From [Chlorobium] sp. 445 (GTDB lineage Bacteria; Bacteroidota; Chlorobiia; Chlorobiales; Thermochlorobacteraceae), in assembly GCA_002763895.1 (NCBI GenBank), contig NSLH01000001.1, positions 1 through 64,000 on the forward strand: a DNA stretch of 64,000 bases. The letters are read 5' to 3'. The translations under genes were made by a program, and so were the position numbers. Positions 5,335-56,392 of the stretch are shown here, piece after piece. Position 1 is the first letter of the stretch. Every line of letters begins with the position of its first letter. The notes beneath the pieces were generated by a model. It was not told where the DNA came from, did not search any database, and saw only the letters and a list, made by a program, of their open reading frames with translations.

Positions 5335-6774
5335 TTAGAACAGCATGTCTTTCAGAGTTTGGCGAATGATACTCATCCCTTCACTCATCTCTTCCATAGA
5401 AAGATTCAATGGTGGGCGGAATCGTACGCTGCGTTCTCCACAGCCCAGCATAAGCAAACCATTTTGCTGCACACGCTTGATAAAAGCATCTCGCTCCGAT
5501 TTAGTGCGCAAGTCAAAAGCACACATGAGCCCTTTCCCGCGTGGGTTTGTTACAATGCCTATGAAATCTTCTGCAAGCAATTGAATTTCACCTAAGAGTG
5601 CTGTACCAACGAGGCGAACATTCTCAAGCAGCCGTTCTTCTTCAATGATTTCAAGATACTTTTTGCATCGGAGCATATCGACCAAATTGCCGCCCCAAGT
5701 GGAATTGATGCGGCTCGGTACGCGAAAGACATTGTCTTCAATATCATCAATGCGAGAGCTTGCCATAAAACCGCATACCTGCGTTTTCTTGCCAAAGGCA
5801 ATCATATCGGGCAAGCATAAATCTTCATGTACAGTGCACCCGCCTTCATTACGAAAGTTGCAGGTGATATTTTCGGGCAATTTGCAGGGCTCAGCGACAG
5901 GGTTCGCAAGCACTTGCTCGGCAGCCCACATTGTGCCTGTGAGACCAAGACCTGTTTGCACCTCATCAAAAATGAGCATGGCGTCGTTTTCAAGCGAAAG
6001 CACACGCAAGGCTTGGAAGAATTCGCGTCGGAAATGATTGTCGCCACCTTCACCTTGAATAGGCTCAATGATGACAGCCGCTATATCATCTTTGTGATCA
6101 AGGAAGGCTTGTTTCATCTGCTCAATCGCATCACGCTCCTTGCGTTCAAGTTCAGCAAGACGCTCATCCGTGAGCGGGAATGTTACTTTCGGATTTGCAA
6201 TGCAGGTCCAAGCAAATTTTGGAAAGAGCTCGGTTTTCACAGGGTCGGTATTGGTAAGCGAAAGCGTATAGCCACTCCGACCATGGAATGCCTCTTTGAA
6301 GTAAATAACATGATGACCGCGTTCCGACTTATAGCCCTTGCGAAAATTCTTTTTGACTTTCCAGTCAAAAGCCGCTTTGAGAGCATTCTCGACAGCAAGA
6401 GCGCCACCTGCAATCCAGAACACATGCTTCATGCTGGCGGGCATCGCCAGTTGTCTGAAGGTCTCGACAAACTCCGCCATCTCGACAGAATAAATGTCAG
6501 AATTAGATGGATTGACAATGGCAGCGTAAAGAAGTTTGTTTAGGAAGGCTTTATCGTTCCAAATCTTGGGATGATTTGCCCCAACAGGTGCAGACGCGAC
6601 AAAGGTGAAAAAATCCAACAGATAGCGTTTGCTGCGCGCATCATACAAGCGTGAGCCCTGGCTTTGTTCTAAGTCTAGGACGACATCAAGACCATCAATA
6701 ATCATAGTTTGCGCTAGTGTGTGATGCACGGTTTCAGGCGAAACACTTACACGCGAGAGAACCTGCATAGACAT
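5335..6774 (-). CDS. lat: L-lysine 6-aminotransferase (lysine epsilon-transaminase)
   Basis: A class III PLP-dependent aminotransferase of 479 residues. Features specific to LAT rather than to ornithine or acetylornithine enzymes include the N-terminal MIIDGLDVVLDLEQSQGS, LDFFTFVASAPVGANHP, the insert NFRNEGGCTVHEDLC, and FGKKTQVCGFMAS, whose Lys should form the aldimine with PLP. The Asp that binds the pyridine nitrogen is in LIFDEVQTGLGLTG. LAT moves the epsilon amino group of lysine to 2-oxoglutarate, giving 2-aminoadipate semialdehyde. AGGAGG (6782-6787) is placed ideally for this start. No semialdehyde dehydrogenase is adjacent; a possible downstream link is discussed for 48905-49513. 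Confidence 0.9.
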   Translation of the reverse strand: MSMQVLSRVSVSPETVHHTLAQTMIIDGLDVVLDLEQSQGSRLYDARSKRYLLDFFTFVASAPVGANHPKIWNDKAFLNKLLYAAIVNPSNSDIYSVEMAEFVETFRQLAMPASMKHVFWIAGGALAVENALKAAFDWKVKKNFRKGYKSERGHHVIYFKEAFHGRSGYTLSLTNTDPVKTELFPKFAWTCIANPKVTFPLTDERLAELERKERDAIEQMKQAFLDHKDDIAAVIIEPIQGEGGDNHFRREFFQALRVLSLENDAMLIFDEVQTGLGLTGTMWAAEQVLANPVAEPCKLPENITCNFRNEGGCTVHEDLCLPDMIAFGKKTQVCGFMASSRIDDIEDNVFRVPSRINSTWGGNLVDMLRCKKYLEIIEEERLLENVRLVGTALLGEIQLLAEDFIGIVTNPRGKGLMCAFDLRTKSERDAFIKRVQQNGLLMLGCGERSVRFRPPLNLSMEEMSEGMSIIRQTLKDMLF

Positions 6775-10000: not shown

Positions 10001-10651
10001 AATAAGTTCATCATCTATCATGGCGCGCATCTCTTGCTCACTGAGCACCTGAATTTTTTCAACCTCATGCGAAGTGCGAAAGCCATCAAAGAAATGCAGA
10101 ATAGGCACGCGCGATTCGAGTGTAGCGGCTTGAGCAATAAGCGCAAAATCATGTGCTTCTTGCACGGAGGCGGAACAGAGCATCGCAAACCCTGTGGCTC
10201 GTGCAGCCATAACATCGGAGTGATCGCCAAAGATAGAAAGGGCTTGCGTTGCAAGTGAGCGAGCCGCCACATGCAGCACAAATGGCGTCAGTTCACCTGC
10301 AATTTTATACATATTCGGAATCATGAGCAGCAGCCCTTGCGACGCCGTGAAGGTTGTTGAAAGTGCCCCTGTTTGCAGGGCACCATGAATGGTACCAGCT
10401 GCACCGCCTTCCGATTGCATTTCTACAACCGTCGGCACACTCCCCCAGATATTTTTGATGTGATGGCTTGCCCATTCATCTGAAAATTCACCCATCGGAG
10501 AAGCAGGTGTGATCGGATAAATTGCAATCACTTCATTTGTACGGTAAGCTACATACGCCACGGCTTCATTGCCATCCATGGTCTTGAAATGTGCTTGTGT
10601 AACTTGTTTGTCGAGAATTGGCTTGCTCGAGGATTCAATAAGTGCGGGCAT
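7017..10651 (-). CDS. nifJ: Pyruvate:ferredoxin (flavodoxin) oxidoreductase, with one base missing near the 3' end
   Basis: A single-chain enzyme of about 1,211 residues that interconverts pyruvate plus CoA with acetyl-CoA and CO2 using low-potential electrons. In order: the pyruvate-binding N-domain (YPITPASPMGE), the gamma domain, two [4Fe-4S] motifs near 710 and 767 (CIQCGKCAMICP, CTGCTLCAEICP), a further cluster motif GACAGCGETPY near 840, and the TPP domain with GGDGWAYDIGYGGLDHVL. The start is the ATG at 10649-10651, behind AAGGAG; 62 in-frame codons upstream are not family-like. The open frame ends in an abnormal tail after EKHIQ. Adding one base at about 7139-7141 gives EKHIQEEAARLFAEAEHDAK and moves the stop to 7017-7019. 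It has its own terminator. Confidence 0.93.
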
Positions 10652-10658
10652 AACTACA

Positions 10659-10664
10659 CTCCTT
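10659..10664 (-). promoter_or_regulatory. Ribosome binding site that fixes the nifJ start
   Basis: AAGGAG on the minus strand sits 7 bases before the ATG at 10649-10651. The upstream in-frame ATG codons (up to 10837) have no comparable site. Confidence 0.75.
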
Positions 10665-10815
10665 ACTACTTTACTTGACAAAAATTCTTTGTGCAGACTG
10701 CGCTGCATGCTTGAAGTCAAGGTATCAAAAGTCATTAGGGTTTGGGGAGAGTTTGTGTTGACCAAAAAGTCGATATGGTCGATTTTCTGTGTAAGTGAAG
10801 TATAAAACTTTGCAA

Positions 10816-10846
10816 TAAAAAAGCCCGATACACTCATCGGGCTTTA
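10816..10846 (-). terminator. Intrinsic terminator of the 12993-10873 membrane cluster
   Basis: AAAGCCCGAT (10836-10845, minus strand) pairs perfectly with ATCGGGCTTT (10820-10829) around a 6-base loop, followed by TTTA. It lies 27 bases after the last gene of the cluster, so the cluster and nifJ are separate transcription units. Confidence 0.85.
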
Positions 10847-10872
10847 CAGAATAAGGGAGACTCAACAGGGCA

Positions 10873-11313
10873 TTAGTTTGCAGCAGGCATTGGCTGCCCT
10901 TGCGTGTTAGACGATGCAGAGGGACGCAAGAACCACAGCAAGGCAACAATGATGGCCTGTGGCGTATGCACCAGCGCAAAGTTGGACCAGCTGATAATTT
11001 GCTGCGCGTTGAGCACCTCTACAGTTGAGGTGATGGCGCCAACGACTTGCTCCACGACGACAATCCACAGCATCTTTTCATACTTGACAACGTCGGTCGC
11101 AATGATGGCGTAAGCAACCGCCAGCACATATAGCAGCATTCCATATTGATGGAACACAATTGCCGACTGTGCGCTGTTGGCGTAGTCTTGCCAGCCATAG
11201 AGCGCAGCGCCCCAATTGAGAAAGATGGTTGAGCCCAGCGCGTTGAGAAATTCCCACGCCGCTAGCAACCACATCATCCCTGAAAGCACTTTGATTTTGG
11301 TGTCTCGATTCAT
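10873..11313 (-). CDS. Unknown 4-helix membrane protein, single copy of a locally repeated unit
   Basis: 146 residues with four hydrophobic segments (about 10-30, 50-78, 83-105, 113-130). I do not recognise a named family. The pattern of helix 1, then HQYG, then a final helix ending LLWFLRP recurs twice in the protein at 11981-12993 (RQYG ... MLWRLAP, and NQQG ... LFYVLRP). This is therefore a one-unit paralogue of that two-unit protein. A good ribosome binding site (GGAGG, 11324-11328) supports the start. It is the last gene of a three-gene minus-strand cluster that ends in a strong terminator. The NapH-like neighbour suggests a role in membrane electron transfer, which is inference. Confidence 0.75.
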   Translation of the reverse strand: MNRDTKIKVLSGMMWLLAAWEFLNALGSTIFLNWGAALYGWQDYANSAQSAIVFHQYGMLLYVLAVAYAIIATDVVKYEKMLWIVVVEQVVGAITSTVEVLNAQQIISWSNFALVHTPQAIIVALLWFLRPSASSNTQGQPMPAAN

Positions 11314-43485: not shown

Positions 43486-44012
43486 CTAAAATGGCAAGTC
43501 GTCCTCTTTTCCTTCACCTGCGCTCTCAGTTTGGTCTTGTTTGGAACGAGGCGATGGCATAGGTGCTGTAATCTCTGCTGGCGGTGCTTCTGCAGAGGCA
43601 ACATGTGGCGTAGGTGCTGTAATCTCTGCTGGCGGTGCTTCTGCAGAGGCAACATGTGGCATGTCACCGCCTTCGGCACGACTACCTAACATCTGTATAT
43701 CTGAGCAAATAATCTCTGTGCGATAATTTTTTTGCTAGTTTCTTTGTCTTCCCAGTTGCGTGTTTGCAATCGCCCTTCGATATAGACTTGTTTGCCTTTC
43801 TTGAGATACTGTCGGCATACATCAGCTAATTTGCCATAGGCGACAATGTTATGCCATTCGGTACGCTCTTTGAGTTCACCGTTTTGATCTTTGTAATACT
43901 CATTTGTAGCAATGCTAAAATTTGCTACCGATGTGCCACTTGGCAACACACGTACTTCTGGGTCTGCACCTAAGTGCCCAATCAACATGACTTTGTTCAA
44001 TCCACGAGACAT
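43486..44012 (-). CDS. ssb: Single-stranded DNA-binding protein, frameshifted
   Basis: Restored length about 175 residues. The OB fold begins [26 protein letters not shown] and includes [20 protein letters not shown] and [20 protein letters not shown]. The open frame ends early at 43686. One extra base in the T7 run 43727-43733 gives [20 protein letters not shown] and continues into a flexible linker and the canonical acidic tip (GKEDDLPF), which binds partner proteins. The linker holds two exact 17-residue copies encoded by a 51-bp tandem repeat. It is followed 11 bases later by the YfiM-like gene. Confidence 0.95.
43561..43662. repeat. 51-bp tandem repeat, two copies, in the SSB linker
   Basis: Two units (43561-43611 and 43612-43662) differ at only one base (GT versus AT near the unit end). 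Each encodes 17 residues ([16 protein letters not shown] plus T or M) in the ssb frame, so the repeat lengthens the disordered linker without breaking the frame. Confidence 0.9.
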
Positions 44013-44156: not shown

Positions 44157-46010
44157 CTATTTCTTTTTGAGCAGGTGTTTGTGCAAAAACTTTTCCATAG
44201 CGCGATAAAATTCAAACTGATTTTCCTCGTTGCGAAAGCCATGCCCTTCATTTTCTTTGACCAGATACGGCACATCAATGCCGCGTGCACGCAACGCATG
44301 AACAATTTGGTTGGATTCTTCGATATTGACCCTTGGGTCTTTTGCGCCTTGCGCAACAAAGAGTGGGGCTTTGATGCGATCGACATGAAACACAGGTGAA
44401 GCAGAGCGCATGAGGTCCTGATCCATGTCAGGATTGCCAACCATTTCGTACATCATCTCCAAATAAGGTTTCCAATACGGCGGCACAGTTTTCATAAATG
44501 TGAAGAGGTTCGAGACGCCGACGTAGTCGACGCCACAGGCATAGAGGTCGGGCGTGAAAGCCAAACCCGCCAGCACTGCGTAGCCACCATAACTGCCACC
44601 GTAAATGCCAATGCGTTTGGGGTCGGCAATGCCTTGCTCAATAAGCCATTTAACACCATCGCTGATATCATCTTGCATCTCTTTGCCCCACTTTTTGAAA
44701 GAAATTTCCCAGAATCTTCGCCCATAGCCTGTAGAACCTCGGAAGTTCATCTGCAAAACAGCGTAGCCACGATTTGCAAGGAATTGAACTTCAGGATTAA
44801 ATCCCCACACGTCGCGCGCCCACGGTCCGCCATGAGGATTGACAATGACAGGCAACTGTTTAGGCTCAACATCTTTCGGCAGTGTAAGGTAGCCATGAAT
44901 GGTAAGGCCGTCGCGCGAAGTGTAGGAAATCGGCTTCATTTCACAAAGTTCATCTTCTTTGAGCCAAGGACTGACATCTGCAAGTTTTGTCAGCGAATCT
45001 GTGGCAAGCTCATAGAGATAATACGCACCAAGTGAGCGGTCGCTATAGGTGCGTACGATGAAGACATCTTCATTTTTGGTTTCACTTGTCAGCGCGATTT
45101 CAACATCTGGGAGCTGGCGTTGCAGACTGCTGAAAATCTGCTCAGTAAGCTTGTCTAAGAAAACATGTTCTCGTTTCCAAGTGGTAAAAGAAATCGCCGT
45201 GAGCACTTTACGCTTGTGCGAATAGGAAAGGTCATAGACATCGACTTCGGGGTGCTGGAAGAGAAGTTCATCTTCTTTGCCAGTTTCAGGATTAAAGATG
45301 ACAATAGCAGATTTATCACGTCCTAAATTCGAAGCAGCATAAATACGGGCATTGTCAAATGTGAAAAAGAGCGGCACGAGTGATTCTTTGAAGTTTGTAG
45401 TCAGAATCGGCTTGAAGGCATCGGCTTCAGTTTTGCGATAAAGCAATGTCGTATTGACGCCGTCTGTGGAAACGGCAAGACGAATTTTGCCATCATGATC
45501 CGTATTCCAGCTTGTGATATTACCCGGATTTTCAACCAGCAGCACAAGTTCACCGGTATGCACATTTAAGCGATAGGCATCAAAGACTTCGGGTGTACGA
45601 AAGTTAAGCGCAATAAGCACATGATCGTCTGAATCAATTAACTCATCGATAAGCATAGTGCGTGTGCCTGAAAACGGTGTCAGGTCGCGCACCTGCTTTT
45701 GAGGCATATTGACAGCAAAGAGATGAAAGTTTTCGTCGCCGCCGAAATCTCTCAGATAGAGCAAGGTATGGTTACCTTTCCAAAAAAAGCCAGCGATATC
45801 ACGCTCAAGTTCATTTGTAAGGCGCACGGCACGTGTGCTGCCCAGACGCTGCACATAAATGTTTTGGCGACGTTTATAGGGTTTCAGAAATGCAATGTGT
45901 TTGCCATCGGGTGAAATTTGATAAGCCGTACGCTCGGGTTTCTTGAAAAAGTATTTGAGGGGAATTTTTCGGCGCTGTGAGGCTACAGTCGCATGGTGAG
46001 TACTTGTCAT
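44157..46010 (-). CDS. S9 family prolyl oligopeptidase-like peptidase
   Basis: 617 residues. The N-terminal half is a beta-propeller of WD-like repeats (for example YQISPDGKHIAFLKPYKR). The C-terminal alpha/beta hydrolase has the nucleophile Ser in GIYGGSYGGYAVLAG, the acidic residue in FVAQGAKDPRVNIEES and the His in NEGHGFRNEENQ. The oxyanion block is VIVNPHGGPWARDVWGFNPE. No signal peptide is seen, so it is probably cytoplasmic and degrades short peptides (acylaminoacyl- or dipeptidyl-peptidase type). It is divergent from the MFS gene at 46116. Confidence 0.92.
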   Translation of the reverse strand: MTSTHHATVASQRRKIPLKYFFKKPERTAYQISPDGKHIAFLKPYKRRQNIYVQRLGSTRAVRLTNELERDIAGFFWKGNHTLLYLRDFGGDENFHLFAVNMPQKQVRDLTPFSGTRTMLIDELIDSDDHVLIALNFRTPEVFDAYRLNVHTGELVLLVENPGNITSWNTDHDGKIRLAVSTDGVNTTLLYRKTEADAFKPILTTNFKESLVPLFFTFDNARIYAASNLGRDKSAIVIFNPETGKEDELLFQHPEVDVYDLSYSHKRKVLTAISFTTWKREHVFLDKLTEQIFSSLQRQLPDVEIALTSETKNEDVFIVRTYSDRSLGAYYLYELATDSLTKLADVSPWLKEDELCEMKPISYTSRDGLTIHGYLTLPKDVEPKQLPVIVNPHGGPWARDVWGFNPEVQFLANRGYAVLQMNFRGSTGYGRRFWEISFKKWGKEMQDDISDGVKWLIEQGIADPKRIGIYGGSYGGYAVLAGLAFTPDLYACGVDYVGVSNLFTFMKTVPPYWKPYLEMMYEMVGNPDMDQDLMRSASPVFHVDRIKAPLFVAQGAKDPRVNIEESNQIVHALRARGIDVPYLVKENEGHGFRNEENQFEFYRAMEKFLHKHLLKKK

Positions 46011-46115
46011 TGCTGCATAGAGTGTTTAGTTAAAGATAAAATTTACACAACTTGCGCTGAAAATTTGTCTGACTTGTATGTACGGCTTATTTTCATGAGA
46101 AAACATTGATTAGCG

Positions 46116-47387
46116 TTGTCAAAATTTGAGTTCTCGTCTATCACTTGGCTCTCTCCGCTTAGTGTTTTTCTGCGTTCAACCTTCTCTGCTTTACATCACC
46201 GTGACTACAGGCTGCTTTGGACTGGTGCATTTCTGTCGAACATCGGCACATGGATTCAGAAAGTCGGTCAACCGTGGCTGATTCTTAGCCTAAGTGGCTC
46301 TCCGCTGCTCTTAGGTCTGGATGGCTTTATGCAAGATATTCCGCTACTGTTACTTTTGCTGATTGGAGGCGCTATCTCAGATCGGTTTGATAAGCGCAAG
46401 ATTCTGATTTTCTCACAAATCGTGCAAGGCTCAAGTGCACTTGCCATGGCTATACTTACGGCTACAGGACATATCACGGTTTGGATAGTCATTGCGCTTT
46501 CATTTATCGTAGGTTGTGTGCAATCGCTTTCTACACCTGCGTATCTTTCAGCGCTGCCCTCGCTTGTGAGCAAAGAGCACATCACCAACGCTATTGCACT
46601 CAATTCCATGCAGTTTAATCTCTCACGCTTTATTGGTCCAGCTATTGGTGGTGTGGTTATTGCGTCGCTCGGTGTGGCATGGTGTTTTGGCTTCAATGCA
46701 CTATCGTATTTGGCGTTACTGATTGTCTTGCCGCTCATTCATTTTCCAAAAGCCGGAATATCAGAACATAAGGCACGCTCACTTAGCGAGAGCATCAAAG
46801 AAGGCATACAACAAGTAGGGCAGCGTCCTGAATTGCTCTCTATTGTGATTGTGGTGCTTTTTGTGAGTTTTTTTGCTGGACCTCTTCTGAATTTTGTACC
46901 TGTGATTGCCAAAGAAAATCTTAGAGCAGAAGCGGGTGGATTTAGTTTGATGCTTTCAGCATTTGGAGCGGGTGCAGTGATTGGTGCGCTGCGTGTTGCA
47001 TCGCTCAAAGAGACGGTTAATCGGCACTATGTTGTAATGACGGCGTCGGGTGTGTTAGCAGCAGTGGTTATTGCAGTTGCGCTGTCGAAAATTTTTTTGC
47101 TTTCAATCGGGCTGATGTTTGTGGGCGGATTTGCTTTTGTAAGTTGCGGTTCAGTAGGCAATACGATTATGCAAACAGAAGTGTCAGAAAATTTGCGCGC
47201 CAGAGTCATCAGTATTTATGCAACCGCCTTTCGTGGTGGCTTGCCGCTGGGCAGTTTACTAACTGGCATGGTGTCGGAGCATGCCGGTGCACAAACCGCT
47301 CTAGTGCTCAATGGGCTTCTGCTGCTAAGCATCTTGTGGTCGTATGGCGAAAAATTTTCGCCAGCTTTTGCATCCGTGCACGATTAA
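46116..47387 (+). CDS. MFS transporter, EntS-like (MFS_3)
   Basis: 423 residues and about 12 membrane segments. The N-terminal block FSALHHRDYRLLWTGAFLSNIGTWIQKVGQPWLI is shared with EntS/MFS_3 exporters (quoted in part; the FRxLW and GxW motifs are the key). GGAISDRFDKRKILIFSQ is the loop 2-3 motif. The frame starts at a TTG, as no ATG with a ribosome binding site is nearby; the exact start is uncertain. Related proteins export siderophores or drugs, but no siderophore genes are here. It converges on the FAD-linked oxidase. Confidence 0.85.
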   Translation: MSKFEFSSITWLSPLSVFLRSTFSALHHRDYRLLWTGAFLSNIGTWIQKVGQPWLILSLSGSPLLLGLDGFMQDIPLLLLLLIGGAISDRFDKRKILIFSQIVQGSSALAMAILTATGHITVWIVIALSFIVGCVQSLSTPAYLSALPSLVSKEHITNAIALNSMQFNLSRFIGPAIGGVVIASLGVAWCFGFNALSYLALLIVLPLIHFPKAGISEHKARSLSESIKEGIQQVGQRPELLSIVIVVLFVSFFAGPLLNFVPVIAKENLRAEAGGFSLMLSAFGAGAVIGALRVASLKETVNRHYVVMTASGVLAAVVIAVALSKIFLLSIGLMFVGGFAFVSCGSVGNTIMQTEVSENLRARVISIYATAFRGGLPLGSLLTGMVSEHAGAQTALVLNGLLLLSILWSYGEKFSPAFASVHD

Positions 47388-47396
47388 GGTCGTTTT

Positions 47397-48887
47397 TTAC
47401 AGCAAAGCAAGATAAGGCTCAGGAATAAGGTTGCCAATGTTGAGAATGAGGCGATCATCCAGGGCTTTTTTGACACGTGCCATTTCTTTGATACCGTCTT
47501 CGCCGAACATCATCACAAGATACTCAGATTTTAGCTTGCCGACACCGTGCTCAGCAGAGATTGTGCCGCCAAGTTCCAGAGTTTTTTGAATGAACTGTCG
47601 ATAAAGCGCTTTTGCGCGCATGGCTTCTTCAGCATTTTTGGGGAGAATGTTCAGATGCAGGTGTGCATCACCGATATGTCCGAACAAGATGTAATCGAGC
47701 CTATTAGCAGCACATTCACTTTGGTAAGTCTTCATCAATTCAGGTAAGTGTTCATACGGCACTGCCATATCCGTGGAAATCTTTCGCTGCTTAAAGCGCG
47801 CATACCATTCATTGACCAAAACAGGCAAGGCATGCCGAAAGTCACGAATTTGCTGCTGCTCATCAGGGGTGAGTGCAATCCAACTTTGAGCCAAACATGC
47901 ACCGTATTTTTCCAGAAGGCTATACCACTGGGTAAGTTGTTCGTCTTCAGTGTGTGAGGTTGTTTCTTGCTCAAAGAAAATTGCGCCTTTAGCCTGCGCG
48001 GGAATGTTCGGATACTTCTTGCGCAAAAAGTTCAGTGAATGCTCATCAAAATATTCTAATGCACGAGCTGAAATTAAAGTGTTTGAGTGTGAGAGCTGAC
48101 GTGCATCACGAACAAAATCAAGCAAAGAGTGATTGTCAGCAAAATAGACAAGTGCACTGAAAATTTTTTCTGGCTTAGCAATGAGCTTCAAATCCGCTTC
48201 CAAGATAGCAGCCAGCGTGCCTTCTGAACCGATAAAAAGATCAATGATATCCATGTTAGGTTTAGCATAAAACCCTGCAACATGCTTAGAGGTGTTGGGC
48301 ATCGTGTAGCTTGGAATTTTGAAGCAATAGCGTCGCCCACGTGGTGTGGTAAAATCAATCATACCAGTGCTGTCTGCAAAAATCTCTCCGCGTCGAATAT
48401 CCATGATTTCACCGTCTGCGAACGCCAGTTTGAGCCGCTCCACATAAGGGCGAGTCGGTCCATACTTGAATGTGCGTGCACCAGAGGAATTGTTTGCGAT
48501 TGTGGCGCCGATAAAGCAGTAGCGTTCGGTAGGGTCAGGTGTGTAGAACAGTCCGAGCGATTCTACTGCGCGTTGAAGGTCGTAGAGCAAAACCCCTGCT
48601 TGAACGGTGGCACGCCCTGTCCCATCGGGAAATTTTTCAATGTTGAGCATGGTGTTGAGGCGATGAAAAGCCAGCGTAACCCCACCGAAAGGAATGCGCC
48701 CACCTGTGGTACCTGTCCCGTTACCCGAAAACGTAACGCGCTTGTGCTGCGCATAGCACATCGTCAGGAGCTGTGCAACTTCTTCGTAACTTTCGGGCAA
48801 ATAGACACCTTCAGTATATCCACCTTGTAAGACACTGGTATCTTCAAGAAACGATTGAATTTCGGTGTGGTCGGTCTTAAAAATCAT
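47397..48887 (-). CDS. FAD-linked oxidase, GlcD/D-2-hydroxyacid dehydrogenase type
   Basis: About 496 residues from the ATG at 48885-48887; an upstream extension overlaps the neighbouring gene. The FAD-binding domain has VYLPESYEEVAQLLTMCYAQ, FSGNGTGTTGGRIPFGGVTL and GATIANNSSGARTFKYGPTR. The C-terminal cap domain has FGHIGDAHLHLNILPKN and the signature GGTISAEHGVGKLKSEYL. This group oxidises D-lactate, glycolate or D-2-hydroxyglutarate. No Fe-S domain is fused and no GlcE/GlcF gene is adjacent. It lies 17 bases after a VOC protein that may produce D-2-hydroxyglutarate. The exact substrate is not decided by sequence alone. Confidence 0.88.
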   Translation of the reverse strand: MIFKTDHTEIQSFLEDTSVLQGGYTEGVYLPESYEEVAQLLTMCYAQHKRVTFSGNGTGTTGGRIPFGGVTLAFHRLNTMLNIEKFPDGTGRATVQAGVLLYDLQRAVESLGLFYTPDPTERYCFIGATIANNSSGARTFKYGPTRPYVERLKLAFADGEIMDIRRGEIFADSTGMIDFTTPRGRRYCFKIPSYTMPNTSKHVAGFYAKPNMDIIDLFIGSEGTLAAILEADLKLIAKPEKIFSALVYFADNHSLLDFVRDARQLSHSNTLISARALEYFDEHSLNFLRKKYPNIPAQAKGAIFFEQETTSHTEDEQLTQWYSLLEKYGACLAQSWIALTPDEQQQIRDFRHALPVLVNEWYARFKQRKISTDMAVPYEHLPELMKTYQSECAANRLDYILFGHIGDAHLHLNILPKNAEEAMRAKALYRQFIQKTLELGGTISAEHGVGKLKSEYLVMMFGEDGIKEMARVKKALDDRLILNIGNLIPEPYLALL

Positions 48888-48904
48888 ACTTCGGTGCGTG
48901 TCCG

Positions 48905-49513
48905 TTATGTGCGTGTGGATTCCATCAAGGTGTTGGCTTGCAAAGAACGAAACCCTGTGTAGCCCCAATGCCGTTCCGCAAGTTCCAAGACGGTGAAAGC
49001 CATACTGTGTTTCATTTCTGGTTTCGTGAAAATTTGCCGCAGGGCGGAGCCGGGCTCACCGGTAATTTCGCCAGCAAACTCAATACCTTTTCTTTCTAAT
49101 GCAGCGATACTTTTTTCAATATCATTGACATTGACGGCGATGTGATGCAGAATTTCATCACCGAAGGTTTCGACCCATTTGGGAATAACACAGCCTGCGC
49201 CACGCTCATCTTCAAAGGCTTGGTCGATAAACACAGCAGGCAAGCCCGGATAGCGATACACTTTTGCCCACCAATTCTCATACTCCACGATGCCTAAGTT
49301 GATATCTTCAATAAAACCCAGTGATAAAAACTCTTCAGCGCGCCGTTCTACATCCGTAGTGCGAATCGTAATGTGGTCAATGAGCGGACGCAAACCGATG
49401 CCAACTTCTTCAAGCAGTGAGTTCAATGTGGCTGCAGCGCGGTTGTTTGCAAGATATTCTTCCACATAGCGCGCAACATGTGCTTCAGCGCGTTTGAAGG
49501 TGTGATACATCAT
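48905..49513 (-). CDS. VOC-fold protein with DUF1338-like end motifs
   Basis: 202 residues. A helical start is followed by two vicinal-oxygen-chelate modules. Candidate metal ligands are His in LIDHITIRTTD (about 47), His in EILHHIAVNVND (about 120) and Glu in FTVLELAERH. The HxxxR spacing in DHITIRT and the C-terminus RHWGYTGFRSLQANTLMEST resemble, from memory, DUF1338 proteins, which include 2-oxoadipate dioxygenase/decarboxylase (HglS). It is far shorter than HglS (about 450). The next gene encodes an FAD-linked hydroxyacid dehydrogenase. A 4-hydroxyphenylpyruvate-dioxygenase-like or glyoxalase role is the alternative. The family fold is clear; the substrate is inference. Confidence 0.65.
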   Translation of the reverse strand: MMYHTFKRAEAHVARYVEEYLANNRAAATLNSLLEEVGIGLRPLIDHITIRTTDVERRAEEFLSLGFIEDINLGIVEYENWWAKVYRYPGLPAVFIDQAFEDERGAGCVIPKWVETFGDEILHHIAVNVNDIEKSIAALERKGIEFAGEITGEPGSALRQIFTKPEMKHSMAFTVLELAERHWGYTGFRSLQANTLMESTRT

Positions 49514-49594
49514 ATCGCAAATAAATTAAGTTGATAAGAAAATGCCCTATAAGGCAAAAGTATATCATTACTACAATTTTACTGCACAGACAAA

Positions 49595-50569
49595 TTACTT
49601 TGCAGACGATGCAGTTTTGAAAGATGAGCGTGATGACGCAGTGCCAAGAGCCGTATCAAAAATTTCGCCCTCGACTTTTTCTTTCACGGCCTCGCCGTGC
49701 ACGGAAGTCAAAATCTCTTTGACATTGCGAGAAAGATTTTGTGCAATGTCGTCCGTTGGCAAATCATCTCTATCCGTACCAAATGGATTCTCGATATCTT
49801 CTGCAATCACTTCAATGCCGACCATCACATAGAAGATAAAGGGTACAATTACAACTGCTGCCCAACCGAAATCACGCATCAGACCAAATGGCAAAGAGAA
49901 GATGTATGCTGCAATAAATCGCTTGATGAGCATAGCATACGAAAAGGGTATAGGCGTTTTTTTGATGCGCTCCATGCCGCCCAGTGTATCAATCAGTTCA
50001 TTGAGATTTTGTGAGAGCGCAAGAAATTGCTCCATCGAAATGTCGTTGTCAGTGCGCAGTTGCTGAACTTTATCTAAGAGCAGTTTCATCACAGCAAGTG
50101 GCATATGAGCGGCAGGTTGTATGCAGGCGCGTTCCGCATCGGACAGCATGGCTAAATCTTGCACCGTTAGAGTCTCGCGCAAATGCTTGGGAATAGCCAG
50201 AGCATAGGCTGAAATCAGTGCAACAAATTGCTGACGGCGTGCATAATCGGCTTGGGGTAGGTAGGCATCGAGTTTGAGGGCAAGATTGCGCGCTGCATTG
50301 ACAAGTGCACCAAGAAGCCGACGCCCTTCCCACCATCGCTCGTATGCCGTATTGGTGCGAAAAACAAGTACCAAGCCTAAAACAACGCCTAAGAGCGTAT
50401 GCACCGTCAGAGGCATTTCAAGTTTGTAATAGCCCTTGACCAAGTCGAAGTAGCACACAAGCGCTGTGAAAACTGCCATAAGCGCCATGCTTGGTAGAAG
50501 TCGCCGCAACTGCCCAGTATTGAACTTGAGGAGAAATGAGAACCAAATTCGGCTATCGTATTGAATCAT
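49595..50569 (-). CDS. Bestrophin family (UPF0187) anion channel protein
   Basis: 324 residues. Blocks typical of bacterial bestrophins are LLGVVLGLVLVFRTNTAYERWWEGRRLLGALV (partly quoted; RTNTAYERWWEGR is diagnostic), YAMLIKRFIAAYIFSLPFGL, and IEVIAEDIENPFGTDRDDLP near the C-terminus. Four membrane helices form a pentameric channel in characterised homologues. The last 40 residues are Ser/Ala/Lys-rich and variable. It stands alone between divergent neighbours. Confidence 0.92.
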   Translation of the reverse strand: MIQYDSRIWFSFLLKFNTGQLRRLLPSMALMAVFTALVCYFDLVKGYYKLEMPLTVHTLLGVVLGLVLVFRTNTAYERWWEGRRLLGALVNAARNLALKLDAYLPQADYARRQQFVALISAYALAIPKHLRETLTVQDLAMLSDAERACIQPAAHMPLAVMKLLLDKVQQLRTDNDISMEQFLALSQNLNELIDTLGGMERIKKTPIPFSYAMLIKRFIAAYIFSLPFGLMRDFGWAAVVIVPFIFYVMVGIEVIAEDIENPFGTDRDDLPTDDIAQNLSRNVKEILTSVHGEAVKEKVEGEIFDTALGTASSRSSFKTASSAK

Positions 50570-50794
50570 GAACGCGCGTTTGTCAATTGGTTTGTCATTT
50601 ATTCGTCCTTCGAAGAGACTGCTGTCAAAACTAAAAAGTTAGTCTTAGCTTTGACAATTGCCAAGCTCTTGCAAAAAAATAAAGTGCTGTGAAGAACAAT
50701 GACAAAAAAGCAGCAAAAGAAGAGTGTAAAGCACAAAACGATTCACAGAGGGGTAATGTTTTGAGCGAAAAATTTACGAATAAATCTTCAACGA

Positions 50795-51900
50795 ATGAGC
50801 ACAAGAAAGAAGGTCGTGGTTGGCATGTCGGGCGGTGTAGATTCGTCTGTAGCGGCATGCCTGCTTGCAGAGCAAGGCTATGAAGTCATTGGGATTACAA
50901 TGAAAACGTGGGATTATGACATGGCAGGTTTGGGCAAAAGTTCAAAGAAAGAAACAGGTTGCTGTTCTTTGGAGTCCATCAACGATGCGCGCAGTGTAGC
51001 TGTCGCCAAAGGGTTCTTGCACTATACACTTGATTTTCGTGAGGATTTCGGTGAAGCCGTTATTGAATATTTCAAAGAAGAGTATTTGCATGGTAGAACA
51101 CCAAACCCGTGCGTGATGTGCAATACTAAAGTCAAGTGGGAATCACTGTTGCAACGCGCAGAACTTTTGGGCGCAGATTACATTGCCACAGGACACTATG
51201 CACGCGTGCGCTATGAAGATGGGCGCTACAAACTCTCCAAGGGCAAGGACCAAAACAAAGACCAAAGCTATGTGCTGTGGGGAATTTCGCAGCGGGCGCT
51301 CTCTAAAACACTTTTCCCGCTTGCTGAACTGACCAAACCCGAAGTGCGTGAACTTGCCCGCAAATTCGGCTTGAAGGTCGCCGAAAAAAGTGAAAGCTAT
51401 GAGATTTGTTTCATTCCCGACAACGACTACGAGCGATTTCTCAAAGAATGGTGCCTGACTTAGAAGCGAAAGTGTCTGGCGGTAAAATTCTTGATGAGTC
51501 AGGCAAGGTCTTAGGGCAGCATCGTGGGTATCCGTTCTACACAATCGGGCAGCGCAAAGGTTTAGGCATCACAACACCAGAGCCAGTTTATGTTACCGAG
51601 ATTCATTATGAGAACAACACCATTGTCGTAGGCAAAAGCGAAGCGCTGCTGCATCATGGACTTGTAGCATCGCAAGTAAATTGGATTGCTGTGGCAGAAC
51701 TGAAAGAGCCAATGTGTGCCAGCGCAAAAATTCGCTACAAAGACCAACCTGAGCCATGCACGATTTCACCACTCGATAACGGTATGGTCGAAGTGCGCTT
51801 TGATAAACCGAAGCGTGCTATTACGCCTGGTCAAGCCGTCGTGTTCTATGATGGTGATGATGTTTTAGGTGGCGGATTCATTCACAGCGTGATAAAGTGA
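50795..51900 (+). CDS. mnmA: tRNA-specific 2-thiouridylase MnmA, broken by a single-base deletion
   Basis: Restored length about 368 residues, the normal size. The ATP-binding P-loop is MSGGVDSSVAACLL. The first catalytic Cys is in TPNPCVMCNTKVKWE, and the second in SYEICFIPDNDYERF. The C-terminal barrel follows with GKVLGQHRGYPFYTIGQRKG and TPGQAVVFYDGDDVLGGG. The first frame ends at FLKEWCLT. One extra A at 51447-51448 gives FLKEMVPDLEAKVSGGKILD and continues to 51900. The enzyme inserts sulfur at U34 of tRNAs for Lys, Glu and Gln. Confidence 0.95.
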
Positions 51901-54439: not shown

Positions 54440-56392
54440 TTACTGCGCAACAGCTTCTAGGGTTTCGGCGCCCATAAATTGAAGCACGCGCTTGCAGATG
54501 CTTTCTGGGTCTAAGCCCACTTCCTTATGCAGTTCAGCAGGCTGACCGTGGTCAATGAATCGATCAGGTAAGCCGATAACGAGCACTTTGTTGCTGTAGC
54601 CTTTTTCTTGCAAGTATTCCAAGACAGCGCTGCCGAATCCACCTTTGATAGTATTTTCTTCAATCGTTACAAGCCGTTCATGCTTAGCGCAAAGTTCATC
54701 AATGAGTGCGGTGTCGAGAGGTTTCACAAAGCGCATATTAGCCACGGCAGCTGAAATGCCTTGTGCAGCTAAAAGGTCAGCGGCTTTCATGGCATGATTG
54801 GTCATAACGCCGATACCGAGGAAGGCAATATCGTCACCTTTGCGTAGCAGTTCGCCTCTACCAATCGGAAGTTGGGTAAATTCTTTGCGCAGCGGCACAC
54901 CTACGGCATTACCTCGCGGATAGCGTACGGCAATTGGACCATCATCATACTTGACGGCTGTATAGAGCATATCGCGCAGCTCTTGTTCGTTCATCGGTGC
55001 CATAATGACCATGTTGGGGATAAGCCGCAAGTAAGAGAGATCAAAAGCACCGTGATGTGTCGGGCCGTCGGCACCAGCCAGACCGCCTCTATCCATTGCA
55101 AAAATCACATTTAGATTTTGCAGAGCTACATCGTGAATAATTTGGTCATAGGCGCGCTGCAAGAATGTAGAGTAGATTGCTACAACAGGCTTCATGCCTT
55201 GCGTAGCCAAACCCGCCCCAAATGTTACGGCATGTTGCTCGGCAATACCTACATCAAAGAAGCGTTCGGGAATTGCTTTCTCCAGAATTTTAAGTGAGGT
55301 CCCCGATGGCATTGCAGCCGTAATACCGACAATGCGCTCATCCATTCGTGCCAGTTCTGTAATGGTATTGCCAAAGACATCTTGATAGAGCGGTGGCGCA
55401 TTTGGATTCGGTGCTTTGAGTGATTTGCCGGTGATTTTGTCAAAGGCGGAGCTTTGTGCATGCCACTTTAATTGGTCTTCTTCGGCAAGTTTGTAGCCTT
55501 TGCCTTTGATGGTTACAATGTGCAAAAGTTTCGGGTGCGGCATCTCGCGCAGTTCGCGCAAAAGCGAAGCAAGATGCACCACATCATGACCATCAACAGG
55601 ACCAAAGTAGCGGAAGCCCAAGGCTTCAAAGAATTGTCCGGGCGTGAGTGCAGCTTTCAGTCCTTGCTCAAGGCTGCGGATAAATTGACGAGCGCGCTCG
55701 CCAAGTTCATTATCCATGCGACTGAGAATGTCCCAGATGTCGCGCCGAATTTTGTTGTAAGTCGAGTTCGTGGTAATGTCAGTCAAATGTTCTTTCAAGC
55801 CACCGACATTGGGATCAATCGACATGCAGTTGTCGTTGAGCACGACAAGCACGTCGGTTTTAAGATGCCCTAAGTGATTAAGCCCTTCAAACGCCATGCC
55901 GCCCGTCATGGCACCATCACCAATGACAGCGACGATTTTGTAGTCTTCTTTGCGTAAATCACGCGCAACCGCCATCCCAGCTGCAGCTGAAATAGAGGTA
56001 GAAGCATGCCCGACACCAAAGGTGTCGTAGATGCTCTCGCTACGCTTTGGGAAACCCGATACACCTTTGTATTGGCGATTGGTATGAAAGATGCCGCGTC
56101 GCCCTGTCAGAATTTTATGTACATACGCTTGATGTCCTACGTCCCAGACAAGTTGATCTTTCGGGGTGTTGTAGATGTAGTGTAGAGCGACAGTGATGTC
56201 TGTGGCACCGAGGCTTGCACCAAAGTGCCCACCGTATTGAGAGACCAGATCAATAACGAACTCTCGGCACTCTTGCGCAATGGCCGGCAAGTCGGAGAGA
56301 GAAAACTTCTTGAGGTCATCAGGAGAATTGATGTGACGCAGATACTTGCCGTAGTTGACAAGGTCTTCTCGGGGCGCTATATGTTCAAGCAT
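54440..56392 (-). CDS. dxs: 1-deoxy-D-xylulose-5-phosphate synthase
   Basis: 650 residues, slightly longer than usual. The TPP domain has HYGGHFGASLGATDITVALHY-type sequence, DQLVWDVGHQAYVHKILTGR, and GDGAMTGGMAFEGLNHLG with the Mg-TPP motif. The pyrimidine domain has VGIAEQHAVTFGAGLATQGM and RGGLAGADGPTHHGAFDLSYL. The C-terminal transketolase domain follows. It condenses pyruvate with glyceraldehyde 3-phosphate, the first step of the MEP isoprenoid pathway. The window also holds a pyruvate oxidoreductase, but no other MEP gene. Confidence 0.97.
   Translation of the reverse strand: MLEHIAPREDLVNYGKYLRHINSPDDLKKFSLSDLPAIAQECREFVIDLVSQYGGHFGASLGATDITVALHYIYNTPKDQLVWDVGHQAYVHKILTGRRGIFHTNRQYKGVSGFPKRSESIYDTFGVGHASTSISAAAGMAVARDLRKEDYKIVAVIGDGAMTGGMAFEGLNHLGHLKTDVLVVLNDNCMSIDPNVGGLKEHLTDITTNSTYNKIRRDIWDILSRMDNELGERARQFIRSLEQGLKAALTPGQFFEALGFRYFGPVDGHDVVHLASLLRELREMPHPKLLHIVTIKGKGYKLAEEDQLKWHAQSSAFDKITGKSLKAPNPNAPPLYQDVFGNTITELARMDERIVGITAAMPSGTSLKILEKAIPERFFDVGIAEQHAVTFGAGLATQGMKPVVAIYSTFLQRAYDQIIHDVALQNLNVIFAMDRGGLAGADGPTHHGAFDLSYLRLIPNMVIMAPMNEQELRDMLYTAVKYDDGPIAVRYPRGNAVGVPLRKEFTQLPIGRGELLRKGDDIAFLGIGVMTNHAMKAADLLAAQGISAAVANMRFVKPLDTALIDELCAKHERLVTIEENTIKGGFGSAVLEYLQEKGYSNKVLVIGLPDRFIDHGQPAELHKEVGLDPESICKRVLQFMGAETLEAVAQ

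Follow-up and report, generated by a model that had tools for sequence, protein, structure and literature searches.

The window analysed here, a 64,000-nucleotide stretch of a [Chlorobium] sp. 445 contig, encodes a 202-residue VOC protein whose kinship to the DUF1338 proteins is well supported, and which represents a compact HglS-like family, a variant within that known kinship. We consider it probable that this protein is an O2-dependent decarboxylating hydroxylase of a 2-oxo-dicarboxylate, the D-2-hydroxyacid product of which would be oxidised by the FAD-linked dehydrogenase encoded beside it. A wider proposal is put forward tentatively: that a sister family of DUF1338, of about 200 residues, bridges DUF1338 to the HPPD and epimerase VOC proteins in sequence; that in Chlorobiota and Omnitrophota it serves an O2-driven operon in which it and the D-2-hydroxyacid dehydrogenase shorten 2-oxo-dicarboxylates by one carbon; and that in Omnitrophota mostly lacking a terminal oxidase it may have lost its metal through decay, giving a clade that retains H47 and R51 but not H124 and E177 and serves a new role.

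The VOC gene, its partner and their surroundings

The features on which this account rests are collected in Table 1. As the preliminary description had claimed, the VOC ORF encodes the motif DHITIRT (with H47 and R51) and the C-terminus YTGFRSLQANTLMEST. Relatives 50-83% identical to it are conserved over their entire length, so the gene is no chance ORF. The adjoining same-strand ORF (47397-48968) had been called an FAD-linked dehydrogenase, in agreement with its matches to Pfam FAD_binding_4 and FAD-oxidase_C; its start is probably the ATG at 48887 rather than the TTG at 48968, which places 17 nt between the VOC stop codon and that ATG. A bestrophin-like gene lies upstream of the pair and a convergent MFS gene downstream. 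The lysine 6-aminotransferase (LAT) gene, about 40 kb from the VOC gene, was also correctly named, scoring 620.3 bits against the L-lysine 6-transaminase model (cut-off 520.8). Searches with Rfam (over 46000-51000), a plasmid comparison and PADLOC returned no match.

Table 1. Coordinates of the VOC gene, its predicted site codons and associated genes in the window
Feature	Coordinates	Strand	Remarks
Compact HglS-like VOC protein	48905..49513	-	202 aa; ORF, relatives, AlphaFold models, closest structure FLO7
H47 to R51 codons (HITIR): predicted metal His (first of two) and candidate substrate Arg	49361..49375	-	
H124 codon: second metal His (predicted)	49142..49144	-	
E177 codon: metal Glu (predicted)	48983..48985	-	
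Partner FAD-linked D-2-hydroxyacid dehydrogenase	47397..48887	-	496 aa; Pfam
L-lysine 6-aminotransferase (LAT)	5335..6774	-	TIGR03251; possible upstream step

The genome containing the window (2.81 Mb, 81 contigs) is near Candidatus Thermochlorobacter aerophilum, described in passages of PMC9560492 as aerobic and photoheterotrophic, and a VOC protein 82% identical to that of the window is encoded at locus L002. Several further features of these loci were recorded. A gene resembling an MnmA-type 2-thiouridylase, named by eye, occupies two overlapping plus-strand ORFs (50795-51463 and 51406-51900), and its counterpart in L002 is a single 403-residue ORF, the division in the window being likely a frameshift or assembly error; a minus-strand ORF resembling a single-strand-binding protein (43686-44012) has 108 residues compared with 158 in L002, possibly through a frameshift. 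Acetate-CoA ligase genes lie near the VOC-dehydrogenase pair in L002 (3655-5544, Chlorobiota) and L135 (668-2599, Omnitrophota); none was found among the genes scanned beside the pair of the window, where 54440-56392 is dxs. In a sister species (G125, locus L050), a phenylalanine-hydroxylase-like gene (Biopterin_H; 10043-10894, minus strand) and a QueF-like gene accompany the pair.

Kinship to DUF1338 in profile, predicted structure and site residues

Interrogation of Pfam with the VOC protein retrieved generic glyoxalase models barely over their cut-offs; the HGLS/DUF1338 model (PF07063) scored 14.2 bits (E 0.028), below its gathering score of 25. Six of eight family members matched this model at E<=1, the best at 0.0063. 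A profile of eight relatives, searched against PDB, retrieved HPPD (3.9e-5) and the DUF1338 structure 3LHO (6.9e-4), and one of 18 relatives retrieved HPPD (5.2e-6), methylmalonyl-CoA epimerase (1.9e-5) and 3LHO (2.3e-3); since HPPD ranks above 3LHO in both, these searches alone give DUF1338 no preference. HPPD's lead there, and the phenylalanine-hydroxylase-like gene near the VOC gene in G125, might suggest that the protein is the genome's 4-hydroxyphenylpyruvate dioxygenase or a fragment of one. We give this next to no credence: the protein scores 18.1 against TIGR01263 (cut-off 277), has 202 residues and has no N-terminal HPPD domain, and full-length HPPD was found over cut-off in nine of 13 genomes searched, among them all six Chlorobiales VOC carriers. 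The identification was rejected because a full-length HPPD is encoded elsewhere in the genome.

In direct profile-profile comparison with a set of 12 short DUF1338 proteins from the phylum, hhalign aligned the VOC family end to end over 194 columns with a probability of 96.9; as controls, epimerases gave 97.2 over 125 columns and HPPD a weaker 66.1. Because the epimerase E-value equalled that of DUF1338 in quality, the whole-profile E-value was dropped as a discriminator and the family was split into segments instead. Across the core (residues 45-169) the scores were 66.6 for epimerases, 45.7 for HPPD and 41.5 for DUF1338, whereas residues 1-44 scored 26.8 with DUF1338, 17.3 with HPPD and 9.4 with epimerases, and residues 170-202 scored 29.1, 21.9 and 10.8, respectively. 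The score of either end with DUF1338 was never attained after shuffling (for each end, 0/100 column-shuffles of DUF1338 and 0/100 shuffles of the segment). The core is therefore most epimerase-like and both ends are of DUF1338 type, the family-specific N- and C-terminal elements being present in these two segments. A helical insert that separates strands 4 and 5 in all 12 short DUF1338 proteins appears as a gap in the VOC protein; this, with the missed HGLS score, makes the protein a compact sister of DUF1338 rather than a certified member. It had also been described as half-size, which is true relative to HglS but not relative to FLO7-like proteins, which have only about 300 residues. Among titles and abstract openings in the literature on DUF1338, HglS and 2-oxoadipate dioxygenase, none concerned a compact family, and according to passages of PMC7286885 DUF1338 has no significant identity in sequence to HPPD or hydroxymandelate synthase.

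Predicted structure agrees with the assignment. Two AlphaFold models of the VOC protein were built, from 8 and 18 alignment rows (pLDDT 87.4 and 89.9), the last ~20 residues being of low confidence (block means 45-72). Structural superposition, a check of the kind that had been suggested, returned rice FLO7 (6W1K), 3LHO and 3IUZ as the best matches of both models: FLO7 headed the VIA-align results with Z 19.8 (195 residues, 2.5 A) and 19.2 (194 residues, 2.4 A), followed by 3LHO and 3IUZ (Z 17.2-18.0). Hydroxymandelate synthase came next, with Z of at most 15.8, then HPPD with a maximum of about 14, HglS itself (12.6-13.2; 12.6-13.3 with YdcJ included), and epimerases and glyoxalases (about 12 at best, epimerases 10-12), which fit the core only. 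Plain Foldseek with the first model ranked 3LHO first (2.0e-10). The DUF1338 fold is thus the closest structure to the VOC protein.

In passages of PMC7286885, the metal ligands of HglS are given as H70, H226 and E294, and R74 as holding the far carboxylate of the substrate, the R74A variant being inactive. By alignment, H47, H124 and E177 of the VOC protein correspond to this triad and R51 to R74 (R64 of FLO7), as expected from the earlier claim of an HglS-like site, and we infer the geometry of the site from these alignments. Within an alignment of 25 family members, H47 and R51 each occur in 24 rows, the motif DHITIRT aligning with DHVALRT of DUF1338; H124 occurs in 21 (missing in L120-L123) and E177, which aligns with E235 of the DUF1338 set, in 20 (missing in L111 and L120-L123); 19 members keep all four residues. 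The HxxxR motif had been offered as a sign of HglS. The alignment of H47 and R51 with the HglS site upholds this in part, but the motif by itself is not specific, as glyoxalase I also has H/QxxxR on its first strand.

Two further VOC activities must be weighed here. The protein might be an epimerase or isomerase rather than an oxygenase, with a CoA ester or a 2-oxoacid tautomer as its substrate and with four metal ligands, H47, Q98 (or D97), H124 and E177. Its core is nearest the methylmalonyl-CoA-epimerase-like set, it matches TIGR03081 with an E-value of 1.6e-5, and Q98, conserved in 23 of the 25 rows, could be a fourth metal ligand as in epimerases. The TIGR03081 score, however, is 25.4 against a cut-off of 114.95, the epimerase structures superpose over some 122-133 residues and explain neither end of the protein, and intact sites accompany terminal oxidase genes (see below), so that we regard this activity as unlikely. 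More improbable by far is a thiol-dependent glyoxalase I yielding D-lactate for the dehydrogenase to oxidise: beyond the shared HxxxR, the glyoxalase-I chains 3hdp and 2qh0 fit the core (Z 11.4-11.9) and lactate dehydrogenases head the PDB sequence matches of the partner, but TIGR00068 scores 14.4 against a cut-off of 120 and the ends of the protein are DUF1338-like.

Gene linkage, distribution and terminal oxidase genes

The VOC gene occurs in six of 98 Chlorobiales genomes, in families f1 and f4 and not in f3, and unexpectedly in 29 of 285 Omnitrophota genomes, with the predicted site intact in 14 and broken in 15. HGLS proper was found over cut-off in 14 of 247 genomes of the phylum, and not in that of the window. 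At three of the six Chlorobiales loci, comprising all three in the genus of the window, the dehydrogenase gene is directly downstream on the same strand; in G276 a cyclase gene and a short ORF come between the two, putting it ~1.5 kb downstream, and in G137 and G133 the two genes lie on different contigs. The same arrangement, directly downstream and on the same strand, recurs at six of the 14 intact Omnitrophota loci (L107, L108, L109, L113, L114 and L115), where the dehydrogenases are ~42-44% identical to that of the window and all six genomes carry haem-copper oxidase (COX1). The remaining eight intact loci have a dCMP-deaminase-like gene downstream, as do five of six broken loci whose flanks were read; at the sixth, L111, the downstream gene is ispH. 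Phylogenetically, the Chlorobiales proteins are placed among the dehydrogenase-linked Omnitrophota, grouping with L113-L115 with support of 97/92 and of 87/93 once L107 and L108 are added; the position of L109 is without resolution.

The reported link between the two genes is accordingly borne out in that it recurs in another phylum, but 92 of 98 Chlorobiales genomes encode the dehydrogenase and most of these have no VOC gene, so it is not dedicated to the VOC protein. The same count ruled it out as a specific partner in terms of phyletic profile.

The broken set comprises L111 (E177K), L119 (H47R), L120, and 12 proteins (L121-L123 and L124-L132) that lack H124 and E177 and keep H47 and R51, possibly metal-free descendants. 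Three of the 12 are in the tree and nine were read from short stretches, and we therefore infer that they form one clade from their similarity. Flanks were read for three of the 12, each having a dCMP-deaminase-like gene and ispH downstream.

COX1 (PF00115) is present in 11 of the 14 Omnitrophota genomes with intact sites, in three of the 15 with broken sites and in three of 13 sampled carrier-free genomes, the difference between intact and broken having a Fisher p of 0.003, uncorrected for kinship or MAG completeness. Among Chlorobiales genomes tested, all five carriers and four of six non-carriers have it. This association fits an O2-dependent enzyme and is no proof of one.

Proposed reaction, its substrate and comparison with known systems

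The reaction that we favour would proceed as follows. The protein is predicted to have helices at both termini and one VOC barrel, in which H47, H124 and E177 would hold Fe(II). By analogy with HglS, a 2-oxo-dicarboxylate would be chelated through its 2-oxo acid end while R51 held the far carboxylate; O2 would then drive removal of CO2 and hydroxylation of the new C2, releasing a D-2-hydroxyacid, which the partner dehydrogenase would oxidise to a 2-oxoacid one carbon shorter. The most likely instance would be the conversion of 2-oxoadipate, through D-2-hydroxyglutarate, to 2-oxoglutarate. The fold, the residues, the gene linkage and the association with terminal oxidase genes come from computation; iron, O2 use, substrate, product and pathway are proposed on that footing. 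Our confidence is moderate for the oxygenase chemistry, lower for 2-oxoadipate as the substrate and lowest for the idea that this organism uses the protein to break down lysine.

The partner bears on the choice of substrate. Its scores fall under the NCBIfam cut-offs (GlcD 232.6 against 567.9, YdiJ 102 against 1350), and its relatives in PDB are, in order, LctD (2.5e-41), LDHD (4.7e-35), glycolate oxidase, a putative oxidoreductase and then D2HGDH (2.9e-26); with the dehydrogenase of L136 as query, LctD once more headed the list and D2HGDH closed it, in sixth place. In human D2HGDH the C5 carboxylate is held by T390, K401, Y432 and N443, according to passages of PMC7801405. At these four positions the partner presumably has Pro, Ser, Phe and Asn, so that N443 appears conserved, and a Lys lies four residues before the Asp, within a conserved RK(I/V)(S/A/G)TD or similar and off the aligned place of K401. 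E. coli YdiJ (L102), itself a D2HG dehydrogenase, also lacks a Lys at the K401 column.

The preliminary description had read the locus as part of a route from lysine to 2-oxoglutarate. This is plausible, and LAT does co-occur with the VOC gene, but the co-occurrence is confounded by ancestry: LAT is found over cut-off in nine of the 98 genomes of the order, namely all six VOC carriers and three without a VOC gene (G079, G237 and G284), and in none of the three Omnitrophota VOC carriers tested. A search for aminoadipate-semialdehyde dehydrogenase did not favour the route, in that none with a curated assignment appeared in the four ALDH stretches scanned, out of eight ALDH matches in the genome; the models that those four hit, all under cut-off, are of betaine-aldehyde, succinate-semialdehyde, P5C and ExaC type. 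Next to one of the four lies an aminotransferase of GABA type, for which the 2-aminoadipate transaminase model scored 416.7 against 650. Lysine thus stands as a plausible, unproven source of 2-oxoadipate. Two side observations concern these genes: in the genome of the window a P5C-dehydrogenase-like gene is split into two ORFs (G000 C11:50990-52377; L090, L091), and one contig of another genome (G318 C38; L062, L067) carries two lysine 6-aminotransferase copies, one with an in-frame stop.

The same data invite a reading in which an HglS-type oxygenase acts, apart from lysine, on some other 2-oxoacid, such as 2-oxoglutarate or a substituted analogue; it overlaps the mechanism set out above, which leaves the substrate open. 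The three Omnitrophota carriers with no LAT over cut-off, the three genomes with LAT and no VOC gene, and the nearness of the partner to LctD and LDHD rather than D2HGDH all point this way. Against it, R51 corresponds to the 2-oxoadipate arginine of HglS and FLO7, and N443 of human D2HGDH appears conserved in the partner. HglS, moreover, is inactive on 2-oxoglutarate and 2-oxopimelate, as stated in passages of PMC7286885. We hold this reading possible, if rather doubtful.

Should the favoured oxygenase be confirmed, a version of 202 residues retaining all the catalytic residues would be a minimal enzyme, a small target for mechanistic study and engineering, and the compact family would connect parts of the VOC superfamily in sequence. 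In the broken-site clade, most genomes of which have no terminal oxidase gene, nature would have supplied an example of an oxygenase that gave up its metal. With its recurrent dehydrogenase gene, the pair also lends itself to a direct test of the product.

Among characterised systems, HglS-type enzymes complete lysine catabolism in plants. With FLO7 (6W1K) and the short DUF1338 proteins (3LHO, 3IUZ) the VOC protein shares the VOC fold, the N-terminal helix pair, the DHxxxRT strand, the second His, the Glu strand and the C-terminal GF..A....EST helix; it differs in lacking the helical insert and in its length (202 residues against 254-320), at about 25% identity. Its correspondence to the site of Pseudomonas putida HglS (6W1G/6W1H) and YdcJ (2RJB) was aligned through the short DUF1338 set; HglS is more than twice as long, and a counterpart of its Val402/Ser403 loop was not identified. 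HPPD and 4-hydroxymandelate synthase (Z 14-16) have in common with it the 2-His-1-Glu site and the QIFTK and E..(E/Q)R motifs, but the VOC protein has no N-terminal VOC domain and the aligned HPPD set has no Arg at the place of R51. Methylmalonyl-CoA epimerase, the most similar in core sequence, is a single domain of ~130 residues without either terminal element, and the VOC protein falls far under its equivalog cut-off. The partner, finally, resembles D2HGDH, D-lactate dehydrogenase and GlcD in its FAD_binding_4 and FAD-oxidase_C domains and in the motifs GH..G...H.N and SAEHGxG, although it reaches no curated cut-off.
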